Shown here piece by piece: positions 14,694-34,961 of a DNA stretch of 55,027 bases (its first letter is position 1; every line of letters begins with the position of its first letter). The position numbers were made by a program, and so were the translations under genes. Source of the stretch: Bacteroidales bacterium (GTDB lineage: Bacteria > Bacteroidota > Bacteroidia > Bacteroidales > UBA932); assembly GCA_017634595.1 (NCBI GenBank), contig JAGBNC010000028.1, positions 1-55,027 on the forward strand, in the 5' to 3' direction. The notes beneath the pieces were generated by a model. It searched no databases, was not told the origin of the DNA, and was given only the letters and a program-made list of their open reading frames with translations.

Positions 14694-15236
14694 ATGAGCC
14701 CAAACAGCGACATAGAGCTATTTAGACGGATTGGCAGGGGCGACCGCTACGCGTTCGACTCGCTTTTCCGCAAATGGTATCCATCGCTGGTGGCTTTCGC
14801 TGAAGGATTTCTGGAGCGCGAGGAGGCAGAAAACGCCGTCCAGGACGTGATGATGAGACTCTGGTCCGGAGCTGCCGGGATCGAGCTGCGGTCGTCAGTA
14901 TCTTCGTACTTGTTTACCGCTGTGAGAAACAGGTGTCTGAATGCAATGGAAAGGCGTGAAATTCAGCAGAAATACATTTCCGCCGTCCGCCTTTCCATCA
15001 TGGAGGCCGTGGCTCCCACCGACCTTCATTCCATGAAAGAAATCAACATTCACCTACAGAGCTCCCTTAGGGAGTTACCTCCTGAGCAGCGCGAAGCATT
15101 TGAGCTGAGCCGCTTCGAGGGACTCAAGTACGAAGAGATCGCCGCGCGCACCGGCGTATCCGTCAAAACAGTAGAATACCGCATCTCGCAAGCCCTGAAA
15201 ACCCTGCGCGCCGCCCTCTCCGACTGGCTTAAATAA
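14694..15236 (+). CDS. ECF-type RNA polymerase sigma factor
   Basis: A sigma-70 family extracytoplasmic-function sigma factor of 180 residues from the ATG at 14694; a TTG at 14685 is less likely. Region 2 covers about residues 20-90 (AFDSLFRKWYPSLVAFAEGF, then EAENAVQDVMMRLW). Region 4 covers about residues 120-175, with the helix-turn-helix YEEIAARTGVSVKTVEYRIS. The next gene is a FecR-type anti-sigma factor and the one after that an STN-bearing SusC receptor, the standard three-part cell-surface signalling arrangement of Bacteroidota. I infer that it directs transcription of the downstream locus. No recognised promoter lies in the 22 bp upstream. Confidence 0.95.
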   Translation: MSPNSDIELFRRIGRGDRYAFDSLFRKWYPSLVAFAEGFLEREEAENAVQDVMMRLWSGAAGIELRSSVSSYLFTAVRNRCLNAMERREIQQKYISAVRLSIMEAVAPTDLHSMKEINIHLQSSLRELPPEQREAFELSRFEGLKYEEIAARTGVSVKTVEYRISQALKTLRAALSDWLK

Positions 15237-15266
15237 ACTGTCTGGTCCTGAGACCTGAAAAAGTTG

Positions 15267-15298
15267 GCCAAGCGCTTTAGGGGAAAAGCGGGCTTGGC
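15267..15298 (+). other. Hairpin between sigma and anti-sigma genes
   Basis: GCCAAGCGCTTT (15267-15278) can pair with AAAGC (15285-15289) plus GCTTGGC (15292-15298), with a 2-nt bulge. No T-run follows, so it is more likely an RNA processing or attenuation structure than a terminator. It sits in the 94-bp gap before the FecR gene. Confidence 0.35.
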
Positions 15299-15330
15299 TG
15301 TCTATATTATATATCAACACTAGAACTGAT

Positions 15331-16350
15331 ATGATAGAGCACAAAGATATCGAATCATTGCTGCCGGACTATTTCCGCGGCAACCTGAGCGAAGCCGAAT
15401 GCAAACTGGTAGATGAATGGATATGCTCCGGGCAGAAGAACCGCGAAATTGCCGAAGAAATATGTCTCCTCGAGCAGGCGGCCTCCCGCATAGGCGTGCA
15501 GGAATACAGCGACACCGAGTCGCGGCTCCGCACAATCCACCGGAATATGCGTCGCAGCAGAATCAGACACATTTACTCTTCTGTCCAGCGCTGGGCTGCA
15601 ATACTCAGCATCCCGCTGCTGCTCGCCACTGCCTGGTTTGCATTTCAATTTTTCCGTCCGCAGGCCAATCCTCCCATTGAGCTCCGCACCGCCAGCGGGA
15701 TGACCTCCTGCACCACCCTGCCCGACGGCAGCCGCGTATGGCTCAACTCCAATTCCACACTTACCTACCCTTCACGATTTGCCAACACCCGAGAGGTCAC
15801 CCTCGACGGCGAGGGTTTCTTCGAGGTCGCCAAGGACAAGGGGAGAAAGTTCCTTGTCCATGCCGGAACAGCCACCCTGGAAGTGCTGGGCACTAGTTTC
15901 AACGTGGAGGCGTACTCCGACATCAGCAAAGAGATACGCACCACCCTGCTCTCCGGATCAGTGCGTTTCCGCTGTCCCGGAAACGATGGACGCGAAAAAA
16001 GCATCCTGATGCACCCGGGCGAGTGTATCACATATTTACCTGAGACCGGCCGTGCATCTCTTGCCAAGAAAGATGGCATGGACGTTATAGCATGGAAGGA
16101 CGGCAAGACCGTTCTGGACAATACCAGCCTCGAAGACGCCTTGCGCGCCATAGGCAACCGCTTCAACGTGGAATTCCTGGTACGCAACGACAAGCTCCTG
16201 GCCAACCGTTACACTGGAACCTTCAGCGGCCAGACGCTGGAAGTCGTGCTGGAGCACTTCAAACGCACCACCGATATCCATTTCGACACTAATCTAAAAA
16301 CAGCGGATCCCGACAATGTATCGGGCCGTCAAATAATCATCGTCTATTAA
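15331..16350 (+). CDS. FecR-family anti-sigma factor
   Basis: An inner-membrane regulator that holds the neighbouring ECF sigma factor until the outer-membrane receptor signals. The N-terminal cytoplasmic part (residues 1-85) contains LLPDYFRGNLSEAECKLVDEW. One transmembrane segment lies at about residues 88-110 (AAILSIPLLLATAWFAFQFF). The periplasmic FecR domain (about 120-225) contains LPDGSRVWLNSNSTLTYP and VTLDGEGFFEVAKD. A C-terminal DUF4974-like domain (about 260-330) contains LEDALRAIGNRFNVEF. At 339 residues it is complete. Only 7 bp separate it from the receptor gene. Confidence 0.95.
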   Translation: MIEHKDIESLLPDYFRGNLSEAECKLVDEWICSGQKNREIAEEICLLEQAASRIGVQEYSDTESRLRTIHRNMRRSRIRHIYSSVQRWAAILSIPLLLATAWFAFQFFRPQANPPIELRTASGMTSCTTLPDGSRVWLNSNSTLTYPSRFANTREVTLDGEGFFEVAKDKGRKFLVHAGTATLEVLGTSFNVEAYSDISKEIRTTLLSGSVRFRCPGNDGREKSILMHPGECITYLPETGRASLAKKDGMDVIAWKDGKTVLDNTSLEDALRAIGNRFNVEFLVRNDKLLANRYTGTFSGQTLEVVLEHFKRTTDIHFDTNLKTADPDNVSGRQIIIVY

Positions 16351-16357
16351 TAACACT

Positions 16358-19300
16358 ATGGGAAGAATCCTCAGAATTCCGACGGTACTTGCACTGCTGG
16401 CATGCCTCCTGGCTGCATCGCTGCAACTTGGGGCCCAGAACCGCAAGATCTCCGTCAACGCCGACAACCAGACTGTGTCGGCAGTGCTCAAAGCCATTGA
16501 GCAACAGAGCGGATACACCTTCTTCTACAATGACGCAGCCTTCGACAAGTCGAGGCGGGTGTCCATCAACGCCCGCGACAAAGATGTGCTGGACATCCTC
16601 GAAGAAGTTTTCCGCGGGACAGATGTAAAGGCTTCGATCATCGAGGGCAACATTGTCCTGAGCAGCAAAGCGCAAACTAACCAACAAGTCCAGGCGCAGA
16701 ACAGACCTATGATTACCGGACGCGTCCTGGATGCCGAAGGATTAGCTTTGCCTGGAGCTTCTGTCTTTGTAAAGGGCACCACCAACGGCACGGTGACAGA
16801 CGATAACGGCTACTTCTCCATTGAAGCCCGCGAAGGTGATGTACTGTCATTCTCGTTCCTGGGCTTCTCCAATGAGGAAGTGAAGGTAGGCAAAAAGAGC
16901 CAGTACAGCGTCAACCTCCAGACAGACGCTGAATTCCTGGAAGATGTCGTAGTGGTTGGTTACGGCACTCAGAAGAAAGTAAATCTGACCGGAGCAGTGG
17001 GAGCCATATCCTCCGAAATTCTTGACAACAAGCCCATTACGCAGGCATCTACCGCGCTGCAGGGCAGCATCCCGGGAGTCACCGTGACCACCAATGGAGG
17101 CGGCCCCGGCGCCGACACCGGTAATATCCGCATCCGCGGTATCGGCACCTTCGGCGGCTCTAGTGCAGCACCGCTGGTACTTATCGACGGAATAGAAGGA
17201 AGCATCAACTCAGTAGATGCTACGCAGATAGACAAAATCTCCGTGCTCAAGGATGCAGCATCTTCCGCCATCTACGGTTCCCGTGCGGCCAACGGTGTGA
17301 TACTCATCACCACCAAGCGTGCCGACAAAGGCAAATCAAGCGTGAGTTATCGCGGCTACGTGGGCTGGCAGACTCCTACCACCACCCCCGATACCGTTGG
17401 TCCCATCGACTACATGATACTCAACCGCGAGGCTACCGAGAACGACGGAGGCACCTCCATCTACACCGACGAATACATCAACAATTACCTGAAGAACAAC
17501 TGGCTGGATCCGGACAACTATCCTATAGTCAACTGGAAGCAGCATGCACTCAACGGCAGCGGCCTCATGCACCAGCACAACCTGAGCCTGAGCGCTTCTT
17601 CAGGCAAGATACGCACACTCACCAGCCTTGGCTTCCTCGACCAGAAAGGTATAGTCAAGAGTGCCGACTACAGGCGCTACAACTTCCGCAACAACATGAA
17701 CGTAGAGATCAACGACAAGTTGTCCATGCGCTTCGACCTGTCCGGAAGTTACGGTCTGAGGCATCACCACCCCAACCAGAGCGGCTTCTTCAACATGATG
17801 AACGCACGCGACCCGCTCTTCCTGGCCCAATGGTCCAACGGCACATACGCTCCGTTCACCGGCGGTACCGTCAACACCCTGCCCATGATGGATCTCGGTG
17901 TAGGCGGACAAGTCACCAACGAAGCTTTCCGCCTGGCGGGAGCTCTGGCCCTCAGTTACAAGCCTTGGAAGTGGCTCACCCTGGAAGGCACGCTGGCACC
18001 CCGGTTCACTCAGAGCGAGACACACACCTTCAACGACCTTGTAACCTACTACTCAGACGCTTACGGCACTGTATCCCCCATCAAGAACAGGGAATACAAC
18101 TCGCTGCGTGAATCCTTAAGCCGCACCATTTACGGCAATTATCTCTTTACCGCCAAGGCGCACCACAAGTTTGCCGCCGCGCACGATGTTACCCTGCTCG
18201 CAGGTGCATCCTACGAGGATATGGACAATCGTACTTTGGGTGCCTACAGGCGCGACTTCCAGTATCCCCAGTACCATACCATAGACGCCGGTGCCGACAA
18301 CGAACTCAAGGAAAACAACGGCGCCAGATACCAGTGGGCGCTAGCCTCATTCTTCGGAAGGCTCAACTATAACTACAAGGAACGCTACCTGTTCGAAGCC
18401 AATATTCGCTTCGACGGTTCTTCCCGCTTTGCCAAAGGGCGCAGATGGGGCATTTTCCCTTCTGCATCAGCCGCATGGCGCATCACAGAAGAGCCTTGGA
18501 TGCAAAACGTTAAGAAAACGGTCAACGAGCTGAAAATCCGAGCCTCCTACGGTCAGCTGGGCAACCAGAACCTTAGAGATGACTACTACCCTACTATCCA
18601 GAGGCTTACAATTTCCAGCATCTCGGCCAACGACATCATCTACCCCATCGTGGGTCTGAACAACCTGGCCAACGAAGAGATCACATGGGAGACCTCCGAG
18701 ATGTACGACATCGGTATCGACGGCACCTTCTTCGACAAGCTCAGCCTCACAGCCGACTGGTACTACAAGACCACCTACGGTATTCTGATGGAGCTTGACA
18801 TCCCCGCCAGCATAGGTCTCAACGCTCCTTACCAGAACGCCGGAATAGTGCGCAACATAGGTTGGGAGCTCGGTATCGGCTACCACGACCACAAAGGAGA
18901 CTGGAACTGGGGCGTGGACGCCAACCTCAGCGACGTGGTGAACAGAATCATCGACATGAAGGGCACAGCTTCCGGCTCGCTTCTGCGCAACGAGGAAGGA
19001 TATGCCATCAATTCAATCTACGGTCTCAAGTGCATTGGAATGGCCCGCAGCCAGGAGGAGGCCGACCAAGTAAATGCTTCCTGCCCGCAATACGGAATGG
19101 AGACCCGGCCGGGCGACCTCATCTACGAAGACATTGCAGGCGATACCGATCCTGACGGCAACCCCATTCCCGATGGCAAAATCGACGACCAGGACCGCCA
19201 GATAATCGGCAGCACCATCCCTCGCTACACCTTCGGAACCACCCTTAGCATAGGCTGGAAGGGCATCAACCTGAGCGCCCAGTTCCAGGGCGTGGGCAAG

Positions 19301-19720
19301 CTGAACGCCTACCTCAACGGTTACTACACCCAGCCTTGCGTGCAGGGAGGTACATTCCGCACAGAGCACCTCAACCGCTGGACTCCCGACAATCCCGACG
19401 GACATTTCCCCCGTCTGAGCTACGCCAGCGAACTGAGCAAGAAAAACTCCAGCTTCTGGATGGCGGATGCATCATATTGCCGTCTGAAGAACCTGCAGCT
19501 CAGCTACACCTTCCCCAAGAAGTTGATGAAGAAGGCCAAGATCAGCAATCTGACGCTCTTCGCCAATGCTACCAACCTCTTCACCCTCACCAATTACTGG
19601 CAGGGTTACGACCCGGAGAACATGTTCACCACCAGCGGAGACGGCGTACAGGCCGGGGCTACCGCCACGAACTACCCTCTGGTCGCTACCTATACCTTCG
19701 GAGTGGACATTAAATTCTAA
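16358..19720 (+). CDS. SusC/RagA-type TonB-dependent receptor with STN signalling domain
   Basis: A 1120-residue outer-membrane transporter. Domains in order: signal peptide (about 1-26, ending near LQLGAQ); STN domain (about 30-100, ISVNADNQTVSAVLKAIEQQ), which in the family contacts the anti-sigma factor; carboxypeptidase-like domain (about 118-200, with GRVLDAEGLALPGASVFVKG and GTVTDDNGYFSI); plug (about 205-340, including VVVVGYGTQKKVNLTGAVG and DAASSAIYGSRAANGVILIT); beta-barrel to the C-terminus (TYTFGVDIKF). It is paired with SusD five bp downstream and preceded by sigma and FecR genes. I infer that it imports a substrate and also signals its presence. The substrate cannot be read from the sequence. 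Confidence 0.96.
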   Translation: MGRILRIPTVLALLACLLAASLQLGAQNRKISVNADNQTVSAVLKAIEQQSGYTFFYNDAAFDKSRRVSINARDKDVLDILEEVFRGTDVKASIIEGNIVLSSKAQTNQQVQAQNRPMITGRVLDAEGLALPGASVFVKGTTNGTVTDDNGYFSIEAREGDVLSFSFLGFSNEEVKVGKKSQYSVNLQTDAEFLEDVVVVGYGTQKKVNLTGAVGAISSEILDNKPITQASTALQGSIPGVTVTTNGGGPGADTGNIRIRGIGTFGGSSAAPLVLIDGIEGSINSVDATQIDKISVLKDAASSAIYGSRAANGVILITTKRADKGKSSVSYRGYVGWQTPTTTPDTVGPIDYMILNREATENDGGTSIYTDEYINNYLKNNWLDPDNYPIVNWKQHALNGSGLMHQHNLSLSASSGKIRTLTSLGFLDQKGIVKSADYRRYNFRNNMNVEINDKLSMRFDLSGSYGLRHHHPNQSGFFNMMNARDPLFLAQWSNGTYAPFTGGTVNTLPMMDLGVGGQVTNEAFRLAGALALSYKPWKWLTLEGTLAPRFTQSETHTFNDLVTYYSDAYGTVSPIKNREYNSLRESLSRTIYGNYLFTAKAHHKFAAAHDVTLLAGASYEDMDNRTLGAYRRDFQYPQYHTIDAGADNELKENNGARYQWALASFFGRLNYNYKERYLFEANIRFDGSSRFAKGRRWGIFPSASAAWRITEEPWMQNVKKTVNELKIRASYGQLGNQNLRDDYYPTIQRLTISSISANDIIYPIVGLNNLANEEITWETSEMYDIGIDGTFFDKLSLTADWYYKTTYGILMELDIPASIGLNAPYQNAGIVRNIGWELGIGYHDHKGDWNWGVDANLSDVVNRIIDMKGTASGSLLRNEEGYAINSIYGLKCIGMARSQEEADQVNASCPQYGMETRPGDLIYEDIAGDTDPDGNPIPDGKIDDQDRQIIGSTIPRYTFGTTLSIGWKGINLSAQFQGVGKLNAYLNGYYTQPCVQGGTFRTEHLNRWTPDNPDGHFPRLSYASELSKKNSSFWMADASYCRLKNLQLSYTFPKKLMKKAKISNLTLFANATNLFTLTNYWQGYDPENMFTTSGDGVQAGATATNYPLVATYTFGVDIKF

Positions 19721-19725
19721 GTGTC

Positions 19726-21528
19726 ATGAAAAAGTACATCATATTGATTCTTGCATCGGCACTTGCCTTTGCATCATGCGACAAAGCCCTGGAGCGCTAT
19801 CCGCTCAACGGCCCTTCCACCGGCACATTCCCCGCCAGCGAAGAAGAAGCCCTGGCCGGAGTTCTGGTAAGCTATAAGAATCTTGCCAATTCCGTCAGCC
19901 AATATAGCTCATATCCATGGCGCTTCGTGGACAACCTTACCGACATAGGCACCACCCGTATCGGTCTCAGCAGCTGGAATCAGCTTGTGACTTCCACCGC
20001 GACCCAGACCACCAGCGCCGCCACCATTCTTTATACCAGAATCTACAAGACCGCCGGACGTATCCATCTTGTCCTGGACAATCTCGACAACATAAAGGAC
20101 AAAATGTCGGAAGAGACCTACCTCCAGTTCAAAGCCGAACTGCTCTGTCTGAGAGCCTTGGTATATGATATGGGCTGCCAGTACTACGGAGACATTCCCT
20201 TCATCGACCATTGCCTGACTCTCAAGGATTATGAGTACCCGCGCGAGCCCAAGGAACAGGTCATCAACCGTCTCCTCGAAGACATGGACGACGAGCTCCT
20301 GGATGCACTCCCTGTCCGCTGGGACAAGAACACCTGGGGCAGCGCCCGCCTGGGCAGGGCGGCAGCTTATACTCTCAAAGCCCGTATCTGCCTCAACTGG
20401 GGGCGCTTCGAAGAGGCTGCAAAGTACTCCAGAAAGGCCATGGAGCTCTCGGAAGGCGTGTACAAACTTGAGCCCCTCGACTGCACCTACTACCCCAATG
20501 CGGCCGCCGACGGCGAGCCCTCAGCGTCCAACCTCTATGGTTTCAAGGGAGAGAAAAGTGATGAGTGGATGTGGGCCATACAGTTCAACAAACTTGCGGC
20601 ATCCAACACACATGCAATGGTTTATACCTACTCATCCCGTGTGCACAACGGAGCCGCCGGCTGCGGCCCTTCCCAGGCTCTCATGGATACATTCCAGTGC
20701 ACCGACGGCAAGTCCATCAGCGAGTCGCCTCTCTACAACTGGCAGGATCCATGGAACCACCGCGACCCCAGGCTCGACCTGTTCTGCCTGAGGCCCGACA
20801 CCCGCTACAACGGCGTAGAATACACCACTAACCCCAATGCAAAGCAGGTCCGCGACTACAATACCGGGGCCATGGTCAACAACAACGACGTCTATGGCAA
20901 CAAGAGCGAGTATGGTCCCAACGGCACCAAGGGGCCCGGCGGCTATCTGTGGCGCAAATTCGGTGACAAGGCCTACTACGGAGCGACCCTTACCAATACC
21001 TACGAGGACGACCTCGACGTATGTATCATGCGCTACGCTGAACTGCTGCTGATCGACGCAGAAGCTAATATTGAGATGGACGGCGGCGACCTCAAGCGCG
21101 CCCAGAACGATATCAACCAGATACGTCAGAGGGTCAAGATGCCGAAGATCACCGTCCTCGACCGCGCCGGACTACGCAGCGCACTGCGCTACGAGCGTAC
21201 CGTCGAACTCTGCGCCGAAGGATTCCGCTGGTTCGACATACGCCGCTGGAAGATGGCGGACGGCAGGGCTATCGCCGAGAAGGTAATGAACGGCCCCCAG
21301 TATGCGCCTGGCTTCAAGAATATCATCTCCAACGCCATCCCGACCATAGACGAGAACTGGACCGTCAGCTACGATCCGTCCAAGACTTGGGACGGAAAGG
21401 CATTCAATCTCCGTACTCTTATCAACATGTACTACCAGCCCGGCAAGGACGAGCTCTGGCCGCTTCCCGACAGGGAAATCCGCACCAACAAAGCCATTGG
21501 CCAAGAGAATCAGAATCCCGGATATTAA
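19726..21528 (+). CDS. SusD/RagB-family nutrient-binding lipoprotein
   Basis: The surface lipoprotein partner (lid) of the SusC-like receptor, 600 residues. The signal peptide MKKYIILILASALAFASC has lipobox Cys18. TPR-like helices are visible (for example RAAAYTLKARICLNWGRFEE at about 206-225). The SusD C-terminal signature is present, ERTVELCAEGFRWFDIRRWK, and the protein ends with LWPLPDREIRTNKAIGQNxxQNPGY-like sequence. It lies 5 bp after the receptor gene and 12 bp before the next lipoprotein gene. Confidence 0.96.
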   Translation: MKKYIILILASALAFASCDKALERYPLNGPSTGTFPASEEEALAGVLVSYKNLANSVSQYSSYPWRFVDNLTDIGTTRIGLSSWNQLVTSTATQTTSAATILYTRIYKTAGRIHLVLDNLDNIKDKMSEETYLQFKAELLCLRALVYDMGCQYYGDIPFIDHCLTLKDYEYPREPKEQVINRLLEDMDDELLDALPVRWDKNTWGSARLGRAAAYTLKARICLNWGRFEEAAKYSRKAMELSEGVYKLEPLDCTYYPNAAADGEPSASNLYGFKGEKSDEWMWAIQFNKLAASNTHAMVYTYSSRVHNGAAGCGPSQALMDTFQCTDGKSISESPLYNWQDPWNHRDPRLDLFCLRPDTRYNGVEYTTNPNAKQVRDYNTGAMVNNNDVYGNKSEYGPNGTKGPGGYLWRKFGDKAYYGATLTNTYEDDLDVCIMRYAELLLIDAEANIEMDGGDLKRAQNDINQIRQRVKMPKITVLDRAGLRSALRYERTVELCAEGFRWFDIRRWKMADGRAIAEKVMNGPQYAPGFKNIISNAIPTIDENWTVSYDPSKTWDGKAFNLRTLINMYYQPGKDELWPLPDREIRTNKAIGQENQNPGY

Positions 21529-21540
21529 TATCACTGAAGC

Positions 21541-23475
21541 ATGAAAAGAAGTATCATATTTTTCGCTGCAGCAGTTCTGTTGACCGCAGGCTGCAAAGAC
21601 TACAGCTATGAGACATGGAGTCCCGACGGCACATTGTCCCGCACCGGCGAAGTGTCATTGCTCGCGACCTTCGAGAACCTTCATACCAAGGTCTATGTGG
21701 ACGAAAAAGGACACGGGACCTGGGACAGGGGCGACGAGATTGCAGTCGCCTGCTCTGACGGCAGCTTCGTCAATTTCTCCCTGGACGGGACAGGTGACAC
21801 CAAGCGTGCCGTGTTCAAGGGCACAATTCCTTCCGGCAAGCAGCTTGGCTCGGTGGCAGTATTCCCCGCTTCCGCAGCAGTAAGCCTTTCCGGCTCCGAT
21901 CTCACCCTGAAACTCAATGAATCCATTGCCGCTGCAGTTTCTTCCACCTATCCCGGCGTGCTCGTGGGCGCGATCGGCGAAACCTGGGAGGTCAACTTTA
22001 AGCAGGCCGTAGGATTCCTCAACCTGGCCATAGGGAACTTCCCTGCCGAGGCCACCAAGATCATACTTTCCAGCCCCGACGGCTCCCTGAGCGGTACGTT
22101 CAAAGCATCTGTGCAGGACATTCTGGAGAATGGCATCAAGCCATCCGACGCAGTGTCCGGCAGCGGCATCACCCTTAATGTCAAAGCCACAGGCAAGACA
22201 GTCTATGCACTTGTGCCTGTCCCGGTGGCCGACTACAGCACCATCAACGCCTCTCTTCGTGACAGCCAAGGTACGGCAGTAGTGGAGCAGCCTCTGAGCG
22301 ATTATGCAACCGGCGTCGCCCGGGCAGAGCTACACTCGATGAACGTCGAATGCGCCGAAGTGGCTGCACCTCCTTGCCGCATCAACATCGGCGGCGAGCG
22401 CACCGTGATGCAGGAATCGGCTCCCGGAGTGTATGAAGGTGAGTTTGAGGTGCCCGCGTCCACCAGCTTCTACGCTGAGTTCGATGGCGTCCCGTACGGC
22501 TTCGCCACTTCTTCCGGTGCCGGCGGGCTCGGCACTATCAAGTCGGACAATTCAGCTCTCCCAGTGGAGAAAATCAAGAACGGCGGCAAGAGCAAGAGGA
22601 CCTATTACGTCAAGCGTGCACAGGGCACAATGGCCAGCACCGAAATTGCCAACAATCCTTTTACCGTTGATCTTGAGAGCCCCGGCAAGATGCATGTCGT
22701 ATTCGACAATTCCAACCCGGGTTCTCCCAGATACAAACTATGGCTTGTAGAAGCTCCCGATCCGTCGATAATCTTCCATGAAGATTTTGACCTGTGTGTA
22801 TTCGGCGGCGATTATCTGGCTCCCGCTGACGGGAAAACCTGCTCCGTCGATGTCTATGACGGATTCCTTCCTGCTACCGGCACCGTGACGCAGAACAATC
22901 CTTGCTTCGCCTTTGACTATCCGGTCAAGGTCGCAAGCAGCGAGCCCAAGCCTGAATATCTGGAAGCATATGGACTCAAAGACTGGGTCTTTGTTCAGGC
23001 CGGCGAGCGCCCGAGCGGAATACAGCTCTGCTCCGGAACAGCTCCCGGCAGCATGACCACCCCTGCACTAAGCAACATTGAAGGGAGCACCGATGCGGTT
23101 ATCGAAATCGACATCGCCCGTTTCTCGACCTCCTCAGTGGATCCCGTGTTCGTGCGCCTGCTCAACGGCGGAAAGTTCGTCTCCGGCAGCGTTACACGCG
23201 ATGCCTATGATGCTGCAAGCCAGGCAGGAGCGCACTATGCCGAGGCATCCACCAGCTACAGCAGTTTCGAGGGTGACGGGAGCAGTTTCAGCATGGCCGA
23301 TGACGAGTATTTCCCGCATTCCCTCAACAATGCCGACGTCGATAAACCGGTATCGCACTACCGCTTCGAGGTCACAGGGCTTACAGCTTCCACCAAGATC
23401 ATGATTGACGCACCCAAGGGGGCCAAGAATGCACCCCGTCTGTTCGTCTTCGACATAAAAGTGAGTAAAAAATGA
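21541..23475 (+). CDS. SusE/F-position lipoprotein with fimbrillin-like N-terminus
   Basis: A 644-residue lipoprotein (signal MKRSIIFFAAAVLLTAGC, Cys18). Residues about 45-250 resemble the fimbrillin/Mfa-like beta-sandwich: they carry the W-x-x-GDEIAV pattern (TWDRGDEIAVACSDG) shared with three later genes of this locus. A middle module (about 280-410) is rich in beta-strands. The C-terminal module (about 415-644) begins IIFHEDFDLCVFGGDYLAP and resembles surface carbohydrate- or glycan-binding domains in general shape only. By position after SusD it would be an outer surface binding protein. The 3' end overlaps the next gene by 4 bp (ATGA), suggesting translational coupling. Exact function is unknown. 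Confidence 0.75.
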   Translation: MKRSIIFFAAAVLLTAGCKDYSYETWSPDGTLSRTGEVSLLATFENLHTKVYVDEKGHGTWDRGDEIAVACSDGSFVNFSLDGTGDTKRAVFKGTIPSGKQLGSVAVFPASAAVSLSGSDLTLKLNESIAAAVSSTYPGVLVGAIGETWEVNFKQAVGFLNLAIGNFPAEATKIILSSPDGSLSGTFKASVQDILENGIKPSDAVSGSGITLNVKATGKTVYALVPVPVADYSTINASLRDSQGTAVVEQPLSDYATGVARAELHSMNVECAEVAAPPCRINIGGERTVMQESAPGVYEGEFEVPASTSFYAEFDGVPYGFATSSGAGGLGTIKSDNSALPVEKIKNGGKSKRTYYVKRAQGTMASTEIANNPFTVDLESPGKMHVVFDNSNPGSPRYKLWLVEAPDPSIIFHEDFDLCVFGGDYLAPADGKTCSVDVYDGFLPATGTVTQNNPCFAFDYPVKVASSEPKPEYLEAYGLKDWVFVQAGERPSGIQLCSGTAPGSMTTPALSNIEGSTDAVIEIDIARFSTSSVDPVFVRLLNGGKFVSGSVTRDAYDAASQAGAHYAEASTSYSSFEGDGSSFSMADDEYFPHSLNNADVDKPVSHYRFEVTGLTASTKIMIDAPKGAKNAPRLFVFDIKVSKK

Positions 23476-25915: not shown

Positions 25916-25936
25916 TTAATAACCAACAATATTAAC

Positions 25937-26068
25937 ATGAACGGAAAACACTACTGTGCACCTCAAATCTGCACTGTGCTGGGGACCTCGGAGCAGGTCA
26001 TATGCACATCCAACGTCGATGATATGGAATATCGCGACGGCGAATGGGATTCCGACCTAGTTTTTTAA
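25937..26068 (+). CDS. 43-residue microprotein, first of a pair
   Basis: A small gene between MBL copy 2 (21 bp) and a fimbrillin-like lipoprotein gene (4 bp). It starts M-N-G-K-H-Y-C-A-P and carries V21-I-C23-T-S-N-V27, E31, G35 and W37-D38. A second small gene at 27865 in the same position before the next paralogue shares Y-x-A-P, V-(I/L)-C-x-S-N-V, E, G-x-W-D with almost the same spacing. Such conservation, placement and lack of a signal peptide argue that both are translated. Short proteins with a Y-x-x-P start near Bacteroidota surface-protein genes are common but uncharacterised. Function unknown. Confidence 0.65.
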   Translation: MNGKHYCAPQICTVLGTSEQVICTSNVDDMEYRDGEWDSDLVF

Positions 26069-26072
26069 TGCT

Positions 26073-27854
26073 ATGAAACGGATTCTCACTATTTTCGCTT
26101 GCCTGGCGATGGCAGCCACCGCCTGCAACAAAGCTCCCGTAGAGACTCCATCTGCGGCTGATTCTAAGACACTTACCATCTCTGCCACCCTGCCGCTCAC
26201 CAAACTTGCCGCAGACCATGGCAAGATAACTTGGACCGACGGGGATGCAATCGCCGTGTACAACACCTCCGGCGACAAATTCGTACTCACCCTTTCACAG
26301 GGCGCCGGCACCAACTACGGCAAGTTCAGCGGCAGCTTCGACGGCACCATAGGCACCGACATTGCAGTCTATCCAGCCGATTACGCCGGTGTGACTCCCG
26401 GCCTGGTAACCATACCAAAGTATGTAGAGCTCAGCGACAACGTTCCTGCCGTAATGGCCTCCGCCCTGGAGATTAACGGCAGCGAAGTCGAAGCTACATG
26501 CTTCCATCATCTGATGTCCGTCATGGAATTCACCCTTAAAGACGTACCTGCCTACGCCTGCGCCTTCAAGCTGTTCTCCAAAGAAGGAGCCCAGCTAAAT
26601 GGCACTTACACAGTCAAGCCGACCCTCGACGGAGTATCTTTCCAGACAGGAAGTTCGGAAGAAGGGACCAACGACCGCGTGGTGTATTTCCCTTACAAGA
26701 CCGCCTACGGCTCCGACGCATCTGTAAAGATCTGCGTTCCTGTGCCTGCTTTCGACTACACTGACCTCAAAGTCAGGGTTCTCGACGGCGATGAGAGCGT
26801 TATCGAAGGCACTGGCATCGGCGTGTCCGCAGCCACCGCTTCACTCAAAGTGGGCGACTACGTGGCCATGCCTGCACTCAACGTACGCTCACTTGTAGGC
26901 TCGGCACGTGACAAGTTTGTCAAGGTGGAAGGCATCAAATGGGCACTCGGCAACCTCCGCGCCTGCAAGAAAGGCACCACTGGCGAAGGCTGGCAGAACG
27001 GATGGAATATCTACGACCATCAGTGGGAAAGCCAGTACATGCTGCTCGGAGAGACCGTGGACGGCACATCGCAGTCATTCTCACTCCAGGACGAAGCTTA
27101 CATGGACGGTGATGTTTACGCTCACTGGGACTACTTCAGCTGGGGCACCATAGGACGCGCCTCTCGAGTTCACAACCAGCAGTTTATCAGCACCGTCAGC
27201 AACTTTGACATCTGTGGCAAAGTGTTCTCCGCACCCCGCGAAGGCACAGAAAAAGTGGATATCTCTACCTGCTCTGAACTCGAAGGCGAAGCACGATTCG
27301 CTGCAGACGATACCTTCAGCAGCACCAACGGCCGTCTCGGAGGAGACCTGGCTTTCTGGGCCAGCAAAGGGCAGTATCGCATGCCCACCAAGGGCGAGGT
27401 CAACAACCTCTACGCCAAGAACTTTGCAGGCAACGGGAGCGACCACGCCAATCTTCAGGCCGGCTACATCATGGTTGACGGCAAGAAGGTCAACGGCATA
27501 CTGTTCACCTCCTGTCCTTCATGGAGTACCACAAGCTATGAGACCACGGCCATCGAGTTGACCGAAGCCGACCTCGAAAGCGGACTGTTCCTCCCCAAGA
27601 TAGGCGAAAGGAATACAAACAAGGATCCCAACACCTACAACTCCAAAGGAGTAGTGTATTTCAATAGCTGGGGTGCCTACTGGTCAGGCACTTACGGCGG
27701 CCTGAACTCCGGCTTCGAAGACTGTGCCGTACACATCTTCTTCACCGGTTCCAACGCCATGAACTACGGCTACACCGGCAAACCCAGCAAGACCATCTCC
27801 GGCCAGACCCTCCTCGGCAATGCCATCCGGCCGGTCTATATACCCCAAGAATAG
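26073..27854 (+). CDS. Fimbrillin-like lipoprotein with FISUMP-like C-terminal domain (copy 1)
   Basis: A 593-residue lipoprotein (MKRILTIFACLAMAATAC, Cys18). The N-terminal half (about 30-270) resembles fimbrillin/Mfa-like beta-sandwich proteins and contains ITWTDGDAIAVYNTSGDKF. The C-terminal half (about 280-590) follows the outline of the Fibrobacter-succinogenes-major-paralogue (FISUMP) domain, a C-type-lectin-like fold: VKVEGIKWALGNLRAC, then WASKGQYRMPTKGEVNNLY, then AYWSGTYGG, then the terminal GNAIRPVY. No catalytic motif is seen. It may be a surface scaffold or ligand-binding subunit. Two paralogues follow in the locus. Confidence 0.75.
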   Translation: MKRILTIFACLAMAATACNKAPVETPSAADSKTLTISATLPLTKLAADHGKITWTDGDAIAVYNTSGDKFVLTLSQGAGTNYGKFSGSFDGTIGTDIAVYPADYAGVTPGLVTIPKYVELSDNVPAVMASALEINGSEVEATCFHHLMSVMEFTLKDVPAYACAFKLFSKEGAQLNGTYTVKPTLDGVSFQTGSSEEGTNDRVVYFPYKTAYGSDASVKICVPVPAFDYTDLKVRVLDGDESVIEGTGIGVSAATASLKVGDYVAMPALNVRSLVGSARDKFVKVEGIKWALGNLRACKKGTTGEGWQNGWNIYDHQWESQYMLLGETVDGTSQSFSLQDEAYMDGDVYAHWDYFSWGTIGRASRVHNQQFISTVSNFDICGKVFSAPREGTEKVDISTCSELEGEARFAADDTFSSTNGRLGGDLAFWASKGQYRMPTKGEVNNLYAKNFAGNGSDHANLQAGYIMVDGKKVNGILFTSCPSWSTTSYETTAIELTEADLESGLFLPKIGERNTNKDPNTYNSKGVVYFNSWGAYWSGTYGGLNSGFEDCAVHIFFTGSNAMNYGYTGKPSKTISGQTLLGNAIRPVYIPQE

Positions 27855-27864
27855 TAATAGCACA

Positions 27865-27990
27865 ATGAACACCAATAGTTTATATACCGCACCGCTGCTT
27901 AAGGTTCTCATAGTGGGCTCCGCAGGAGTTCTTTGCGAGAGCAATGTTCAATCTCGTGAGATGATTGAAGGCAGCTGGGATGAAGAATAG
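27865..27990 (+). CDS. 41-residue microprotein, second of a pair
   Basis: Relative of the microprotein at 25937. It starts M-N-T-N-S-L-Y-T-A-P and keeps V22-L-C24-E-S-N-V28, E32, G36 and W38-D39. It begins 10 bp after the preceding paralogue's stop codon and ends 13 bp before the next lipoprotein start. The spacing between conserved residues matches the first copy after a single one-residue shift. No signal peptide or membrane segment is evident, though residues 11-24 are hydrophobic. Confidence 0.65.
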   Translation: MNTNSLYTAPLLKVLIVGSAGVLCESNVQSREMIEGSWDEE

Positions 27991-28003
27991 AAGGAATCGA
28001 CTC

Positions 28004-29803
28004 ATGAAAAAGCAGATTATTATTGCTTGCATAGCGATGGCAGCCATCGCATGCAACAGAGAGATGATTCCTGTTGAGAATCAACCTGACAGCACCAGGA
28101 CCATTACACTCACAGCTTGTATTCCGGACACAAAAGTGTCGGTTGCGAGCAATGGTAAGGTCACATGGAGCAGTGATGACGAAATTGCCGTCTATAACAC
28201 CGATGGCCAGAAATTCATTTTCACTGTAAAGAGTGGGGCTGGCACCGGCAACGCCACTTTTGAATGCTCAACTTTCTCAGGTTCGATAGGCGATGTTGCC
28301 GTGTATCCATCGGAATGGGCTGGAGATACTGCCGGAGAAATTGTTATCCCGGAGTACATTGAACTCTCTGACAAGATTCCGGCCGTGATGGCCTCAAGTG
28401 TTGAAAACGGTGACGGCAATGAAGTTGCCCCCCTCTATTTCAATAGTCTTATGGCTATCGCCGAGTTCACGCTGAAAGATGTCCCGGCTTACGCCTGCGC
28501 ATTCAAGCTTTGGTCAAAAAGTGGTGCTATATTACACGGCACTTACACTCTGAACTCCACTAGAGATGCTTTTGATTCCTTACCTACAGGTAATTCATCA
28601 CAAATCATCTATTTCCCTTATAAGACCGCATATGGTCCCGACGCCACGGTTAAGATCTACGCAGCTGTGCCTGCATATGAATATACCGACCTTGCTGTCA
28701 GGGTCCTTGATGGAGATGAAGACGTCATAGAAGGCACCGGAAAAGTTATCCCCTCAAAGAATTTCAGCGGAATCAAAGCAAATGCCTACCTGCAGATGCC
28801 CACACTCAACATCCGCTCCATGGTCGGCTCCGCTCGCGACAAGTTTGTCAAGGTGGAAAAGGTCAAGTGGGCCAAGGGGAACCTGCGGGCCTGGAAAAGC
28901 GGCGGAGATGAAGGCTCCGGCAACGGCTGGGTTGAAGGATGGAATGTCTATAAACACCAATGGGACACTCAATATGCTTTAGTAAATGAGACTGTTACCG
29001 GTTCATCTGTCTCTTATAGTATTAATAGCGCCAACTATAAGGAAGATAACGTTTATACCCATTGGGATCATTTTAGTTGGGGAACATTAGGACGAGCATC
29101 AAGAGTACACAACTGCCCTATTATATGTGAAACACAAGAATATCAACTATATAATAAGGTTCTTGATCTTGGTTCAGCAACATCAGGCACAATTACTTCA
29201 GCCACAGCCGTATTAACCGGAGATAGCCAATGGGTCGAAATCGAAACATTCGGAAGTAATAATCCTACATACGCTGGAGACATTGCATATTGGGCCAGCA
29301 AGGGACAATATAGAATGCCTAAAAGCAGCGAGATAGTCAAGCTGTATAGCAAAGCTGGAGAAACGAATGAAAGAGCTAATATGCAAGCTGGCTACTACAT
29401 GGATGGTGATAAAAGAATTAATGGGCTTCTGTTTACTTCCACTCCAATTCATTGGAATTCTGCCCCCAGTTACAATAAAGAAGCAATCGAATTAACTCTA
29501 GCGGATATTGAGTCAGGATTATTCCTTCCATCAAATGGAATCCGTGGAGATATCGGCACCTCTCCTGGGACATTCTCGGCAACAAATGTTACGGGATACA
29601 ATGTTTGGGGAGGTTATTGGTGTGGTAGTTTCGGTGGAGACATAGAAGACAGCAATTATAAGAATAACGCCAGATGCATTGGTTGGAAAACTGACAATGC
29701 TCTAATGTATGGCTACACAGTTTCAATCTCCAATAGCAAGGGGTGCCTTTATCTTGGAAACACAAAAGTTGGCAACTGCATTCGCCCAGTGTATAATCAA
29801 TGA
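28004..29803 (+). CDS. Fimbrillin-like lipoprotein with FISUMP-like C-terminal domain (copy 2)
   Basis: A 599-residue paralogue of the previous lipoprotein. The start at 28004 gives MKKQIIIACIAMAAIAC with lipobox Cys17. The N-terminal half contains VTWSSDDEIAVYNTDGQKF. The C-terminal half contains VKVEKVKWAKGNLRAW, WASKGQYRMPKSSEIVKLY, GYWCGSFGG and the ending GNCIRPVYNQ. From about 28950 to the stop, codon choice is clearly more A/T-rich than in its neighbours (many ATA, TTA, AAT, GAA codons), while the region just before is GC-rich. This points to a recombinant or recently acquired C-terminal half. Confidence 0.75.
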   Translation: MKKQIIIACIAMAAIACNREMIPVENQPDSTRTITLTACIPDTKVSVASNGKVTWSSDDEIAVYNTDGQKFIFTVKSGAGTGNATFECSTFSGSIGDVAVYPSEWAGDTAGEIVIPEYIELSDKIPAVMASSVENGDGNEVAPLYFNSLMAIAEFTLKDVPAYACAFKLWSKSGAILHGTYTLNSTRDAFDSLPTGNSSQIIYFPYKTAYGPDATVKIYAAVPAYEYTDLAVRVLDGDEDVIEGTGKVIPSKNFSGIKANAYLQMPTLNIRSMVGSARDKFVKVEKVKWAKGNLRAWKSGGDEGSGNGWVEGWNVYKHQWDTQYALVNETVTGSSVSYSINSANYKEDNVYTHWDHFSWGTLGRASRVHNCPIICETQEYQLYNKVLDLGSATSGTITSATAVLTGDSQWVEIETFGSNNPTYAGDIAYWASKGQYRMPKSSEIVKLYSKAGETNERANMQAGYYMDGDKRINGLLFTSTPIHWNSAPSYNKEAIELTLADIESGLFLPSNGIRGDIGTSPGTFSATNVTGYNVWGGYWCGSFGGDIEDSNYKNNARCIGWKTDNALMYGYTVSISNSKGCLYLGNTKVGNCIRPVYNQ

Positions 29804-29869
29804 TTGTCACCCGTGAGCGGGCAAGGTCCGGTTTTAGATCGGGGACCTTACCCGCCGGGATCGCTGATA

Positions 29870-29913
29870 AACGCCGGTCGTCCTCACCAGAGGCCGATTT
29901 TGAGGACGGAGGA
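29870..29913 (+). repeat. 44-bp hairpin repeat, copy 1
   Basis: Begins AACGCCGGTCGTCCTCACCA and contains CGTCCTCA pairing with TGAGGACG. An identical 44-bp copy follows 51 bp further on. Confidence 0.85.
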
Positions 29914-29920
29914 GGGAAAT

Positions 29921-29964
29921 AACGCCGGTCGTCCTCACCAGAGGCCGATTTTGAGGACGGAGGA
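29921..29964 (+). repeat. 44-bp hairpin repeat, copy 2
   Basis: Identical to 29870-29913 over 44 bp, with the same 8-bp stem CGTCCTCA/TGAGGACG. It ends 25 bp before the next start codon. Just upstream (29819-29855) is a third, unrelated hairpin, GGGCAAGGTCC with GGACCTTACCC. Confidence 0.85.
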
Positions 29965-29989
29965 CAAAGGTCTGGTTTAGAAGAAAAAT

Positions 29990-32938
29990 ATGAAAAGAGT
30001 TATATCGTTATTATTATCAGCAAGTTTGCTGGCGGCCATAACGGCCTGCAGCAGGGAGCCGGCGGGGCGTGAGACCCCGGAGGAGGCCACTGAAGGCCGA
30101 ACGCTGGTGCTTACGGCGTTCGCCCCGGCGCAATCCGAAAACGAAGCCCACTCCGCCACGGCCACACCATCCCCGTCCACCAAAGTCAGCGTTGCCTCCA
30201 CCGGCAAAGTGACCTGGAGCGAAGGAGACGAGATAGCACTTTATAACTCATCAGGGCAAAAGTTCAAAGCCACTCTCACCGGCGGCGCCGGCACTGCTGA
30301 AGGCACATTTACCTGCAGCAGTTTCAGCGGGACCCCCGGCACGACGGCCGTCTATCCTTACGCATTGGCAGGAGACGCACCCGGCACCATCAACATTCCG
30401 AACATCCAGGAGCGCACCCAAGACATCCCCTCGCTCATGGCATCGGCATACGAGATCAGCGGCAGCAGCCCCATTAAGCTCTACTTCAAGCATATAGCCC
30501 CAGTCATCGACTTCACCCTCGTTGACATCCCGGCGTACGCAAGAGCCCTGGTGCTCAACGCCGACGGCCCCCGTATCTGCGGCAGCTTCACATTCGATCA
30601 GGATAGCCTCGGGCCTCTGGCCGCAGAGCCGAGCACATCGTCACAGATCATAAGCTTCCCCAGCGGCGAAGGCTTCGGCACAGAGCTGCATTTCCGCCTA
30701 GCCATCCCCGCCGGAGAATATACCTCCCTGTCTATCAGCATCCTTGACGGCGACGAGACACCGATCGAAGGCCTCGAATCCATCAAAATCGGCACCAAGG
30801 TCCTTGGCGCAAGGGACTACGTCGCCATGCCTCCCCTTGACATCCGCTCAAAATGTACCCGCAGCAGCTCCATCCGCAAAGTAGAAGGCACGCCGTGGGC
30901 CGCCGGCAACCTGATTGCCGAAGCCTCAGGGGCCACCTCCGACGGCTTCCAGAGCGGGTGGAGGATAGCAGCACAGCAGTACGAATTCCTTGGCTGTGAC
31001 AAACTTGACGGAAGCGGCACTGCGGCCACATTTACCCAGAGCGCCACAGCCTTCGACCGCTTCAACTGGGGCGGAATCGCCGGCGACGCCTGGCTTCCGA
31101 GCGCAGGCTATATGCTCCCGTCCGATGCCAAATTCAACATAAGCGGACGCATTTTCACTTTGGCAAGCGGCAGCGGCGAAGATCTAGAAGCCTCGGAGCT
31201 TAGCGGCGACGACTGTTTCGCAGCACCTGCCGGCGGCTCTTTTGCCACCGGATCCACGCTCCACGGCGACGTTGCCTACTGGGCCAGCAAGGGGCAGTAC
31301 CGCATGCCCACGGCAGCTGAGATCTCAGTGCTCAGACCCGGCACTTCAGCAACCAACGCCAGCGGCAAAGCGGGTTACGTTATCGTAAACGGCAGCCGCA
31401 TCAACGGAGTGTTGCTGACCTCAACTCCCTCTTGGGAGACTTCCACCCTCAGCACCGAAGCCGTAGAGCTGACGCCGGCAGACCTTGAGAGCGGGCTCTT
31501 CCTGCCCAAAGCAGGGAGGGGCAGGCTCATATCCGGAAGCAACTCTTCCACAATCAATTACGCCAACGCCCAGGGCTACTACCGCACCGCCACATTCTCC
31601 GGACTCGACCTGAACAAGTACCCCGACTCCGACCATTCCACTACCGTGCTCGGTTTCCGCGCCGCCAACAGCTGCGACTACGGCTACACGGTACATCTCA
31701 ATTCCGACGCGGCATACGGTGTCGGACACGTGCAGAAGTGCCTCCCGATACGCCCTGTGCTGTGCAGCGAAGGTTCAGCGCCGGTGCCGGATCCCATTCC
31801 CCAGCCCGATGCAAACTCGCTCCCGGCATGGAGCCCGGGCTACCTTGACATACACGCCATCAACTCCGGCAGAGGCGAATGTACCCTGGTCATCATGCCC
31901 GACGGGACCTCGATGATGATAGACGCAGGCGAGTACTTCACAAGTTCAGCCAAAGCCGTAGAACAGAAGCCATCGACGGCAGTAAGGCCCTACAAGGTCT
32001 ATACGGCATACGCAAAATACTTCCTGAGGGCTACAGGTCACGACTGGCTCGACTACTTTCTGCTGTCGCACTACCATGTGGACCACATGGGCCAGCACCG
32101 GAGCTCATACGGGACCTCCGGCAATGGCTACTGCCGCAGCGGAGTAATGGCAGTGTATGATGACTTACCCATCAAGAAACTGGTGGACCGATGCGGGCCT
32201 TCCGCTACACCTGCCACCGACGACTACAGTCAGGCCGTTTACGACGACTTCCGGCAGTTCGCCCAATACCGTAAAGACACCGACGGCATGGCGTGGTACG
32301 CCATCAATCTCAACGCATCCGGCAACTACAAGAAGCAGTTTGTGCCCAAGTACGACAGTTCCTACGACTTCACTGTGTACAACCTCGGTGCCAACGGCAA
32401 ATATTGGAACGGCAGCGGTTTCAGTACATATTCCGGCAATCTTACCGAGAACGGCGAATGCGCAACAGTGCTGATCTCCTACGGCTCGTTTGACTACTAC
32501 AGCGGCGGCGACTGCGCCTGTCAGACCGGCGTCATGCAGCGTATCGCACAAGGCATTGGCAAAAAGGTGGAGGCAATGAAAGCCACCCACCACATGTACT
32601 ACAACACCATCGACGCCGCTACCGCAGCGATTCTCCAGCCTAAGGTGACAGTGGCCCAGATCTTCGATTCCGACAAGCCAGGCGACCCTGCATTCAGCCT
32701 CCACCGGCAGTACGGAGACGTTTTCATATCCAACATACATAGCGGACGTCTGGACAATACTGCATCGATCAAGGGCGGCACCGGCGTGGAGGACCTTGCT
32801 TCCAAAGTCAAAGACTACGGGGGGCACTTCGTGATAAGGGTATCTCCCGGAGGAAAGCAGTTCATGGTGTACAAACTGAGAGATTCTGACTTCTCTTATA
32901 GCGTCGAAGCATCCTACGGACCTTACAGTTGCTATTGA
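29990..32938 (+). CDS. Fusion lipoprotein: fimbrillin-like + FISUMP-like + metallo-beta-lactamase
   Basis: A 982-residue lipoprotein (MKRVISLLLSASLLAAITAC, Cys20). It combines modules found as separate proteins upstream. The fimbrillin-like part (about 35-290) contains VTWSEGDEIALYNSSGQKF. The FISUMP-like part (about 295-595) contains RKVEGTPWAAGNL, WASKGQYRMPTAAEIS and LPIRPVLC. A short Pro-rich linker (about 600-610) precedes an MBL domain (about 612-982) with LPAWSPGYLDIHAINSGRGE, the metal motif H694-x-H696-x-D698-H699 (SHYHVDHMG), YYSGGDCACQTG and EAMKATHHMYYN. The fusion links scaffold and enzyme functionally. In the bridging region GGDAGGN is replaced by GGDCACQ, and the later ADHH is ATHH. 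No microprotein precedes this copy; two hairpin repeats do. Confidence 0.85.
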   Translation: MKRVISLLLSASLLAAITACSREPAGRETPEEATEGRTLVLTAFAPAQSENEAHSATATPSPSTKVSVASTGKVTWSEGDEIALYNSSGQKFKATLTGGAGTAEGTFTCSSFSGTPGTTAVYPYALAGDAPGTINIPNIQERTQDIPSLMASAYEISGSSPIKLYFKHIAPVIDFTLVDIPAYARALVLNADGPRICGSFTFDQDSLGPLAAEPSTSSQIISFPSGEGFGTELHFRLAIPAGEYTSLSISILDGDETPIEGLESIKIGTKVLGARDYVAMPPLDIRSKCTRSSSIRKVEGTPWAAGNLIAEASGATSDGFQSGWRIAAQQYEFLGCDKLDGSGTAATFTQSATAFDRFNWGGIAGDAWLPSAGYMLPSDAKFNISGRIFTLASGSGEDLEASELSGDDCFAAPAGGSFATGSTLHGDVAYWASKGQYRMPTAAEISVLRPGTSATNASGKAGYVIVNGSRINGVLLTSTPSWETSTLSTEAVELTPADLESGLFLPKAGRGRLISGSNSSTINYANAQGYYRTATFSGLDLNKYPDSDHSTTVLGFRAANSCDYGYTVHLNSDAAYGVGHVQKCLPIRPVLCSEGSAPVPDPIPQPDANSLPAWSPGYLDIHAINSGRGECTLVIMPDGTSMMIDAGEYFTSSAKAVEQKPSTAVRPYKVYTAYAKYFLRATGHDWLDYFLLSHYHVDHMGQHRSSYGTSGNGYCRSGVMAVYDDLPIKKLVDRCGPSATPATDDYSQAVYDDFRQFAQYRKDTDGMAWYAINLNASGNYKKQFVPKYDSSYDFTVYNLGANGKYWNGSGFSTYSGNLTENGECATVLISYGSFDYYSGGDCACQTGVMQRIAQGIGKKVEAMKATHHMYYNTIDAATAAILQPKVTVAQIFDSDKPGDPAFSLHRQYGDVFISNIHSGRLDNTASIKGGTGVEDLASKVKDYGGHFVIRVSPGGKQFMVYKLRDSDFSYSVEASYGPYSCY

Positions 32939-33845: not shown

Positions 33846-34961
33846 ATGAGAAGATTAATCGCTTGCATAATAGCTGCGGCGCTGCTTTGCATATCCGCTG
33901 GTGCACAGGACCGGGCGGACAGGCAGTCGCTGAGCGTCCCTGGCGGATCTACCATGATACTTCTCGGAGACCCGCAAGGATATGAAAAATACGACATCAA
34001 CCAGGGTATCTTCGAAATCTGTACGGCATGGATACGTGACAATGTGGAGCATCTGGGCATTAAGGCGGTGCTCTGCACCGGCGATCTGGTGGAGCAGAAC
34101 GACAACAACGCCCTGAACCGCCGCATGCTCAACCAGACTTCGCGGCAGATGTGGGAATCCGTGTCCCGCGCGTTTGAGAGGCTGGACGGAGTGGTCCCTT
34201 ATATCACATCTCCCGGCAACCACGACTATGGATTCAAGGCGTCGGAAGACATCCACACATTCTTCCCTGATTACTTCACTTCGGAGCGACAGGGGCAGGC
34301 GCTGCTAGACGTGCTGGTGAGCGAGCATCCAAACCGCGAAGGCAGGGCGTCAATAGAGAACAGCGCCACGCGCTACACTCTTCCCGGATGGGACCATAAA
34401 ATATTGGTAATCAGCTCCGAATTCAGCCCGTCCGATGCCGTGCTCGCCTGGGCGAAGGGACTCTGCGAGAAGTATTCCGACGACTACGTGATCTTCCTGA
34501 CGCATTCCTATATGAAGTGCGCCGGCCGCTGCGGCAACGAACGTTACAACAAGCCCGAGAAATACCCCCTCTGCCAGGACCCGTCCAACAATTGCGGCCA
34601 GCAGATCTGGGACAAACTGGTGAATGAAGTGCCCAACCTGCGCCTGGTGCTCTGCGGGCATCATGGCCACAGCGACTTCCGCAAGACACACGTCGATGAT
34701 TACGCGGCCAACATGGGCTGGCGCGTGGACAAGAACAAAGCGGGCTTCAACGTGGGCCAGATGATGTTCAACGTGCAGACCCTCGGCGGCGGTTGGGAAG
34801 GCAACGGCGGCGACGGCTGGCTCCGCATCCTCGAGTTCCTGCCCGATGGCAAGACCATGCGCGTCAGCACCTACTCCCCCCTCTTCGGCATCTCCCCACT
34901 CACCAAACACCTCTCCCACCTCACCGACGAGCTGAACCAGTTCGAGTTTGTGTTTGAATAG
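33846..34961 (+). CDS. Exported calcineurin-like metallophosphoesterase
   Basis: A 371-residue protein with a cleavable signal peptide (about 1-20, IIAAALLCISAGAQ). The family's metal-binding blocks are in order: LLGDPQG (Gln in place of the more common His in GDxH), CTGDLVEQNDN, SPGNHDYG, FLTHSY and LCGHHGHSD. It probably hydrolyses phosphomonoesters or diesters outside the cytoplasm; the substrate is not readable. It follows the SPFH gene by 10 bp and shares its promoter. A structured terminator-like region lies about 115 bp after the stop. Confidence 0.9.
   Translation: MRRLIACIIAAALLCISAGAQDRADRQSLSVPGGSTMILLGDPQGYEKYDINQGIFEICTAWIRDNVEHLGIKAVLCTGDLVEQNDNNALNRRMLNQTSRQMWESVSRAFERLDGVVPYITSPGNHDYGFKASEDIHTFFPDYFTSERQGQALLDVLVSEHPNREGRASIENSATRYTLPGWDHKILVISSEFSPSDAVLAWAKGLCEKYSDDYVIFLTHSYMKCAGRCGNERYNKPEKYPLCQDPSNNCGQQIWDKLVNEVPNLRLVLCGHHGHSDFRKTHVDDYAANMGWRVDKNKAGFNVGQMMFNVQTLGGGWEGNGGDGWLRILEFLPDGKTMRVSTYSPLFGISPLTKHLSHLTDELNQFEFVFE

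Follow-up and report, generated by a model that had tools for sequence, protein, structure and literature searches.

A conserved Bacteroidales SusCD uptake locus with a sigma-factor switch and three metallo-β-lactamase-fold proteins of the predicted Pce/ComEC branch

Glycoside hydrolases are the usual key to interpreting the uptake loci of gut and rumen Bacteroidales, and loci that lack these enzymes therefore stay unread. Polysaccharide utilisation loci (PULs) with an extracytoplasmic function (ECF) sigma factor and a FecR protein are a well-known general type, and signalling from an STN-bearing SusC transporter through FecR to the sigma factor is established. Another precedent is found in Flavobacterium, in which PusCD loci combine a SusCD-like pair with phosphodiesterases and phosphatases, not carbohydrate enzymes, and are induced by phosphate depletion (PMC8115612). 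Here, we analyse a locus at positions 14694–32938 of a 55,027-nt stretch of DNA (the window), which is contig JAGBNC010000028.1 (C27) of the Bacteroidales bacterium assembly GCA_017634595.1 (2.59 Mb, 36 contigs). The locus is a real, conserved variant of the SusCD uptake locus and not a new kind of system. Our preferred reading, for which belief and doubt are about evenly balanced, is that it has its own trans-envelope switch and that its three metallo-β-lactamase (MBL) proteins, predicted to belong to the Pce/ComEC branch, would cut phosphodiesters of a phosphate-containing polymer.

All genes of the locus lie on the forward strand. The first encodes an ECF sigma factor of the TIGR02985 type (14694–15236; NCBIfam Sig70_bacteroi1, 152 bits against a cut-off of 126), followed by a FecR-type anti-sigma regulator (15331–16350; Pfam FecR 3e-16, FecR_C 6e-14), a SusC/RagA TonB-dependent transporter (16358–19720; TIGR04056, 935 bits) with an N-terminal STN domain (residues 53–104, E = 6e-13) and, adjacent to it, a SusD-like lipoprotein (19726–21528; SusD_RagB 1e-45). 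Lipoprotein P0005 (21541–23475; lipobox by eye) precedes two MBL enzymes, A (P0006, 23472–24647; signal peptide by eye) and B (P0007, 24638–25915; lipobox by eye). Two microprotein/lipoprotein pairs come next: microprotein 1 (25937–26068, 43 aa) with P0008 (26073–27854), and microprotein 2 (27865–27990, 41 aa) with the P0008 paralogue P0009 (28004–29803, with the ATG at 28004 taken as its start in place of 27965). The last gene (P0010, 29990–32938) encodes a fusion lipoprotein with a fimbrillin-like part and a C-terminal MBL domain (aligned residues 607–969). An earlier sequence-only reading of the window had proposed this gene set in one direction, and Pfam, NCBIfam, profile searches and predicted structure bear it out; by Pfam, none of the ten locus proteins is a glycoside hydrolase or lyase. 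The very short gaps that it described apply to most of the junctions (in order 94, 7, 5, 12, −4, −10, 21, 4, 10, 13 and 186 nt): they range from −10 to 21 nt, but not between sigma factor and FecR (94 nt) or P0009 and P0010 (186 nt). The latter gap (29804–29989, assigned to no strand) contains predicted hairpins and is more stably folded than shuffled sequences (z = −2.95), so co-transcription of the fusion gene with the other genes is not certain. It also holds an exact 44-nt repeat in two copies that could form hairpins (29870–29913 and 29921–29964), and the 41-nt core of the repeat has no further copy in the host genome within 3 mismatches. Terminator and promoter scans were uninformative.

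Compared with ECF/FecR PULs, the locus has the same clustering of sigma factor, FecR, STN-SusC, SusD and surface lipoproteins; the difference is that the hydrolases are MBLs and that the cluster holds no glycoside hydrolase or lyase, which places it outside the strict definition of a PUL. With the Pus loci it shares a SusCD pair beside phosphodiesterase-like enzymes, here predicted as such from the MBL fold, and a calcineurin-like phosphoesterase (PF00149), which is present in PUSI and just downstream of our locus. It differs in having the ECF sigma/FecR/STN switch, the Pce/ComEC-type MBLs, the fimbrillin-like lipoproteins and the microproteins, and the main text of the paper has 0 occurrences of words beginning with ‘metallo’ (PMC8115612). 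The ECF/FecR switch suggests a control other than phosphate depletion. In the one open-access library searched, none of the papers that we found dealt with Pce-type MBLs as part of SusCD loci.

The assignment of all three MBLs, made in the sequence-only reading, stands, on evidence that differs by protein. P0006 passes the Pfam Lactamase_B cut-off narrowly (24.6 versus 22.7 bits), and P0007 and P0010, which match no Pfam family, were assigned to the superfamily by profile search and by AlphaFold2 models compared with Foldseek. An alignment profile was needed, given that phmmer with P0007 alone against the PDB returned chance-like matches only. The best PDB sequence-profile match of the MBL alignment is Pce (CbpE; 1wra, 2bib), with the MBL fold aligned along ~275 residues at ~20% identity, and the top structural score (Z = 27.4) goes to the C-terminal MBL nuclease domain of ComEC (9ic4). 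Both stand well above the other MBLs listed, by fold and by sequence, and we place the proteins in the Pce/ComEC branch with good confidence in a model-based prediction. The ComEC likeness raises the possibility that they are nucleases and that the locus salvages DNA or RNA from outside the cell, with oligonucleotides imported through SusCD. We consider this unlikely, because Pce ranked first in the profile search and because motif II is of the Pce form HxHxDH in 201 of 207 MBLs, including all seven of the host genome; the remaining 6 carry a D variant, and none of the seven has the ComEC form, which is HxDxDH (PMC12455585). Furthermore, no nucleoside transporter or nucleotidase occurs among 18 annotated neighbour proteins, most neighbours being unannotated. 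ComEC is also a membrane channel protein, whereas the MBLs here are small exported or fimbrillin-fused proteins; unlike Pce, they belong to a SusCD locus of a Gram-negative bacterium. As to motif III, the stretch from H136 to D286 contains no invariant histidine.

The three MBLs fall into three separate orthologous groups (support 0.999 for P0006, 0.991 for P0007 and 1.0 for P0010), and their sequences predict three exported, non-redundant hydrolases. The host genome encodes seven MBLs of this kind on three contigs. Of the other two contigs, C34 has SusC, SusD and sulfatase-like genes and C12 has SusC and SusD (labels by eye), and the SusD proteins of both fall in the same protein cluster as those of other loci.

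Within Bacteroidota, MBL genes of this kind do not usually occur alone. Matches were present in 28 of 61 genomes of the genus (in G053 over 22 positions only), and 44 of the 65 MBL genes in genus loci (host genome included, window excluded) lay within 6 genes of SusC or SusD, as did 97 of 142 in other loci of our collection, the two sets overlapping in part. By chance we would expect at most ~14%, an estimate based on the density of SusD genes in 19 genomes (420 genes in ~47.7 Mb, sizes rounded). Of 93 loci, some of them the same contig counted twice, 58 have a SusD gene no more than 7 genes away from an MBL. Neither SusC nor SusD was seen in 13 of 41 genus loci and 23 of 71 other loci, and four of the 13 are contig pieces with SusCD in another piece. 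Homologues in Acidobacteria, Planctomycetes and Gemmatimonadales occur without SusCD. These counts support the view that the MBL genes belong to a regulated SusCD surface locus.

FAD-dependent oxidoreductases (PF12831) of one cluster also recur beside the MBLs, in 33 of 93 loci (for example L029, L057 and L066; window 36188–37603). They were found in 11 of 41 genus loci versus 5 of 40 control SusD loci, which are the top of a SusD list and not a random draw (p = 0.16), and in 23 of 72 other loci versus the same genus controls, a taxonomically unmatched comparison (p = 0.024).

The locus is conserved in close relatives. When the collection was scanned with an alignment of the seven host MBLs and the top 80 of 530 confirmed places were kept, 72 loci resulted, and 15 of them hold a close P0007 relative (68–82% identity). 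Beside close MBL relatives, the gene set recurs, whole or in part, on 15 further Bacteroidales contigs. Wherever the junction is covered, in 14 of 14 loci, a P0005 homologue abuts the MBL gene (L043 begins inside the MBL), and all 11 loci that extend far enough have SusD upstream of P0005. Of 14 relatives, 12 encode MBL A; L012 lacks it, and L040 has a different second MBL. The fusion gene was found in 10 of 15, with the contig ending earlier in four and an unclear call in L040. The regulatory genes vary: four genomes (L011, L021/L114, L116 and L118) have sigma and FecR genes that point away from each other, and L012 has no sigma factor or FecR beside SusC. As in the window, rpoC-like sequence (by eye) is found near the locus in L012, L116 (G047) and L120 (G048), so the position of the locus looks old.

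These gene calls come from a simple longest-ORF script, with starts often too early, short genes missed and the wrong strand chosen in places (probably L040 9755–12730); contig ends truncate several loci, and L147 was dropped because the gene call recovered no MBL. Six sets of loci represent either two parts of a single contig or what appears to be the same contig from two collections (L017/L120, L035/L121, L021/L113–L114, L034/L119, L033/L117–L118 and L038/L115–L116). Beside sigma factor, FecR or SusC, an extra MBL protein of ~700 aa is encoded in L012, L114, L116, L118 and L120, and absent from the window; its MBL groups with one from the C34 SusCD locus of the host genome.

The fimbrillin-like label given to the lipoproteins has structural support for P0010, the one lipoprotein modelled (pLDDT 77, pTM 0.55), and for P0005, P0008 and P0009 comes from profiles or similarity. 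In Foldseek, the P0010 model matches Bacteroides ‘putative cell adhesion’ structures (3ufi, E = 4e-6; 3t2l; 4dgu), which we take, partly from general knowledge, to be fimbrillins, as well as Mfa2 (5nfi, E = 6e-3). With residues 607–969 taken up by the MBL domain, these matches are assigned by exclusion to the N-terminal half. P0008 matches the fimbrillin-like profile over its first 494 residues, and P0008, P0009 and P0010 have repeated stretches in common, as paralogues would. A FISUMP-like label, also proposed earlier, was not confirmed, with no Pfam match for P0008–P0010 at E ≤ 10. P0005 matches no Pfam family at E ≤ 0.01, nor any above its cut-off at E ≤ 10, and its homologues weakly resemble the fimbrillin-like paralogues; reading it as a DNase was dropped, given that NCBIfam NF052644 covers 44 residues (474–517) far under its cut-off. 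Lipoprotein number and type differ among relatives, and the 3' part of P0009 (29101–29803) has 41% GC compared with ~55% around it; hence, the surface part looks mosaic, and this stretch may itself be mosaic or have been replaced recently.

Several adhesin-like lipoproteins of variable number and type could also belong to a system for display or attack, in which they would hold MBLs that modify the envelopes of neighbours or host mucus without feeding, much as Pce works on the teichoic acid of the pneumococcal surface. We regard this as highly improbable, since the frequent association with SusCD and the SusC-coupled sigma system here argue for uptake. In the uptake mechanism that we prefer, STN-SusC would report the substrate to FecR and then to the ECF sigma factor, switching on the locus. 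The MBLs, two of them predicted lipoproteins and one of these borne on a fimbrillin-like stalk, would cut phosphodiester bonds outside the cell or at its surface, SusD and the lipoproteins would capture the pieces, and SusC would import them. We infer a phosphodiester substrate class because of the fold, motif II and the Flavobacterium PusCD precedent, and the polymer would most likely be a glycopolymer with polyol-phosphate or phospho-head-group substituents.

Several observations on gene neighbourhoods weigh against this reading. Phosphoester or polyol-phosphate genes show no significant enrichment: they accompany the MBLs in 10 of 41 genus loci compared with 4 of 40 SusD controls (p = 0.14), and in 16 of 72 other loci (p = 0.13). 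Same-strand polyol-phosphate genes within 5 genes were counted in 11 of 112 versus 0 of 39 in a post hoc comparison (p = 0.067). The true weight of such neighbour counts is less than their size, as L063/L073 and L029/L031 are near duplicates. None of 20 further glycerol-1-phosphate-dehydrogenase-like (G1PDH) loci of the genus, 6.3–18.0 kb each, has an MBL; they comprise 18 of the best matches outside L063/L073 and two from the host genome. Genes of the GH2 type lie downstream in five relatives (L011, L016, L041, G023 and G011), and a mannonate dehydratase gene (UxuA) in four (L016, L036, G023 and G011); the GH2 genes form one cluster, and Pfam was run for both on L016. Lastly, the MBL fold hosts many chemistries, and catalysis here is predicted from models.

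In the sister locus L063/L073, MBLs, a microprotein and an FAD oxidoreductase are followed on one strand by G1PDH-like, GlpT/UhpT-like and HAD phosphatase genes, and L073 holds SusD and a fimbrillin–MBL fusion; the G1PDH and GlpT labels rest on similarity to proteins that are under NCBIfam cut-offs. We had considered this polyol-phosphate context as proof of substrate and rejected it, keeping it as suggestive, because G1PDH-like genes are widespread (88 of 200 genus genomes) and lack an MBL in the 20 further loci. Two further matches are 100% identical: L232, with an MBL, and L233, a short piece that shows none. In Bacteroides oleiciplenus (L029), a row of genes encodes alkaline-phosphatase-like, SusC, SusD, GDPD, FAD oxidoreductase, MBL, transporter, esterase and sulfatase proteins (labels by similarity, GDPD by Pfam).

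The GH2 and UxuA genes point to a sugar or uronic-acid part of the substrate, so a glycopolymer with phosphate is preferred over a pure phosphodiester diet. Of the earlier proposal that the locus is a substrate-induced surface system for a non-glycan or phosphate-ester-containing ligand, the regulated SusCD locus including the MBL genes holds and a phosphate ester is compatible with the predicted Pce/ComEC fold; ‘non-glycan’ is unsupported, given the GH2 and mannonate dehydratase genes downstream in relatives of the same locus. The sugar genes would also fit an ordinary glycan locus with glycoside hydrolases elsewhere in the genome and MBLs that strip ester, sulfate or lactone decorations. That is rather unlikely in our judgement, as the MBLs go with Pce and ComEC well above the other MBLs listed and no glycoside hydrolase is encoded among the ten window proteins. 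A narrower form of the phosphate-polymer reading is doubtful, namely a SusCD system for teichoic-acid-like phosphoglycopolymers in which three exported Pce-type metallo-phosphodiesterases would replace glycoside hydrolases; this would be a class of uptake locus that recurs in Bacteroidota and harvests the walls of Gram-positive neighbours.

Both microproteins share the motif Y..P...C.S and belong to a family of ~38–60 aa with an acidic tail and often a tryptophan. With dN/dS of ~0.07–0.37 across eight pairs (dS saturated for microprotein 2; one near-identical pair left out), both look like genes under purifying selection. At E ≤ 0.1, a model of the family matches 12 places in the host genome, and at E ≤ 0.01 it has hits in 29 of 41 genomes of the genus; at E ≤ 0.001, in a sample of 60 genomes of the order that includes 58 members of other families, it matched the host genome alone. 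Among 40 microprotein loci examined (in the host genome and genus loci L204–L231), two have no open reading frame that fits the pattern and two no downstream gene in the piece; the next gene matches the fimbrillin-like profile in 34 of the 36 other cases versus 26 of 467 control-locus genes, although the model was built from members at such places and the seed loci are not independent of this count. Pfam and NCBIfam gave chance-level matches only (E of 0.06 or worse), and no clear signal peptide is visible by eye. Judged from sequence, the microproteins are an uncatalogued family paired with fimbrillin-like lipoprotein genes, and our guess is that they act as leaders or in coupling to the lipoprotein.

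At its 5' end, the window has a truncated Tuf-like ORF (by eye), tRNA-Trp and genes for ribosomal proteins L11 (by eye), L1, L10 and L7/L12, followed by rpoB, rpoC and a prolyl oligopeptidase gene, and the locus starts next, at 14694. An Rfam search found two tRNAs and nothing else. Downstream on the same strand, the calcineurin-like phosphoesterase (33846–34961; Metallophos 1e-8) is a possible accessory, and its ortholog adjoins the fusion gene in L121. A second calcineurin-like phosphoesterase is encoded at 38622–39758, and its homologues recur by the locus in four genomes (L033/L117, L035/L121, L113 and L115).

The pairing of microproteins with fimbrillin-like lipoproteins is a separate question with clear genetics. 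For the MBLs, the named species Bacteroides oleiciplenus YIT 12058, with its homologous SusCD–MBL locus (L029), is a possible test case. If the MBLs are phosphodiesterases, these recurrent loci would become interpretable as harvesters of phosphate-containing polymers.

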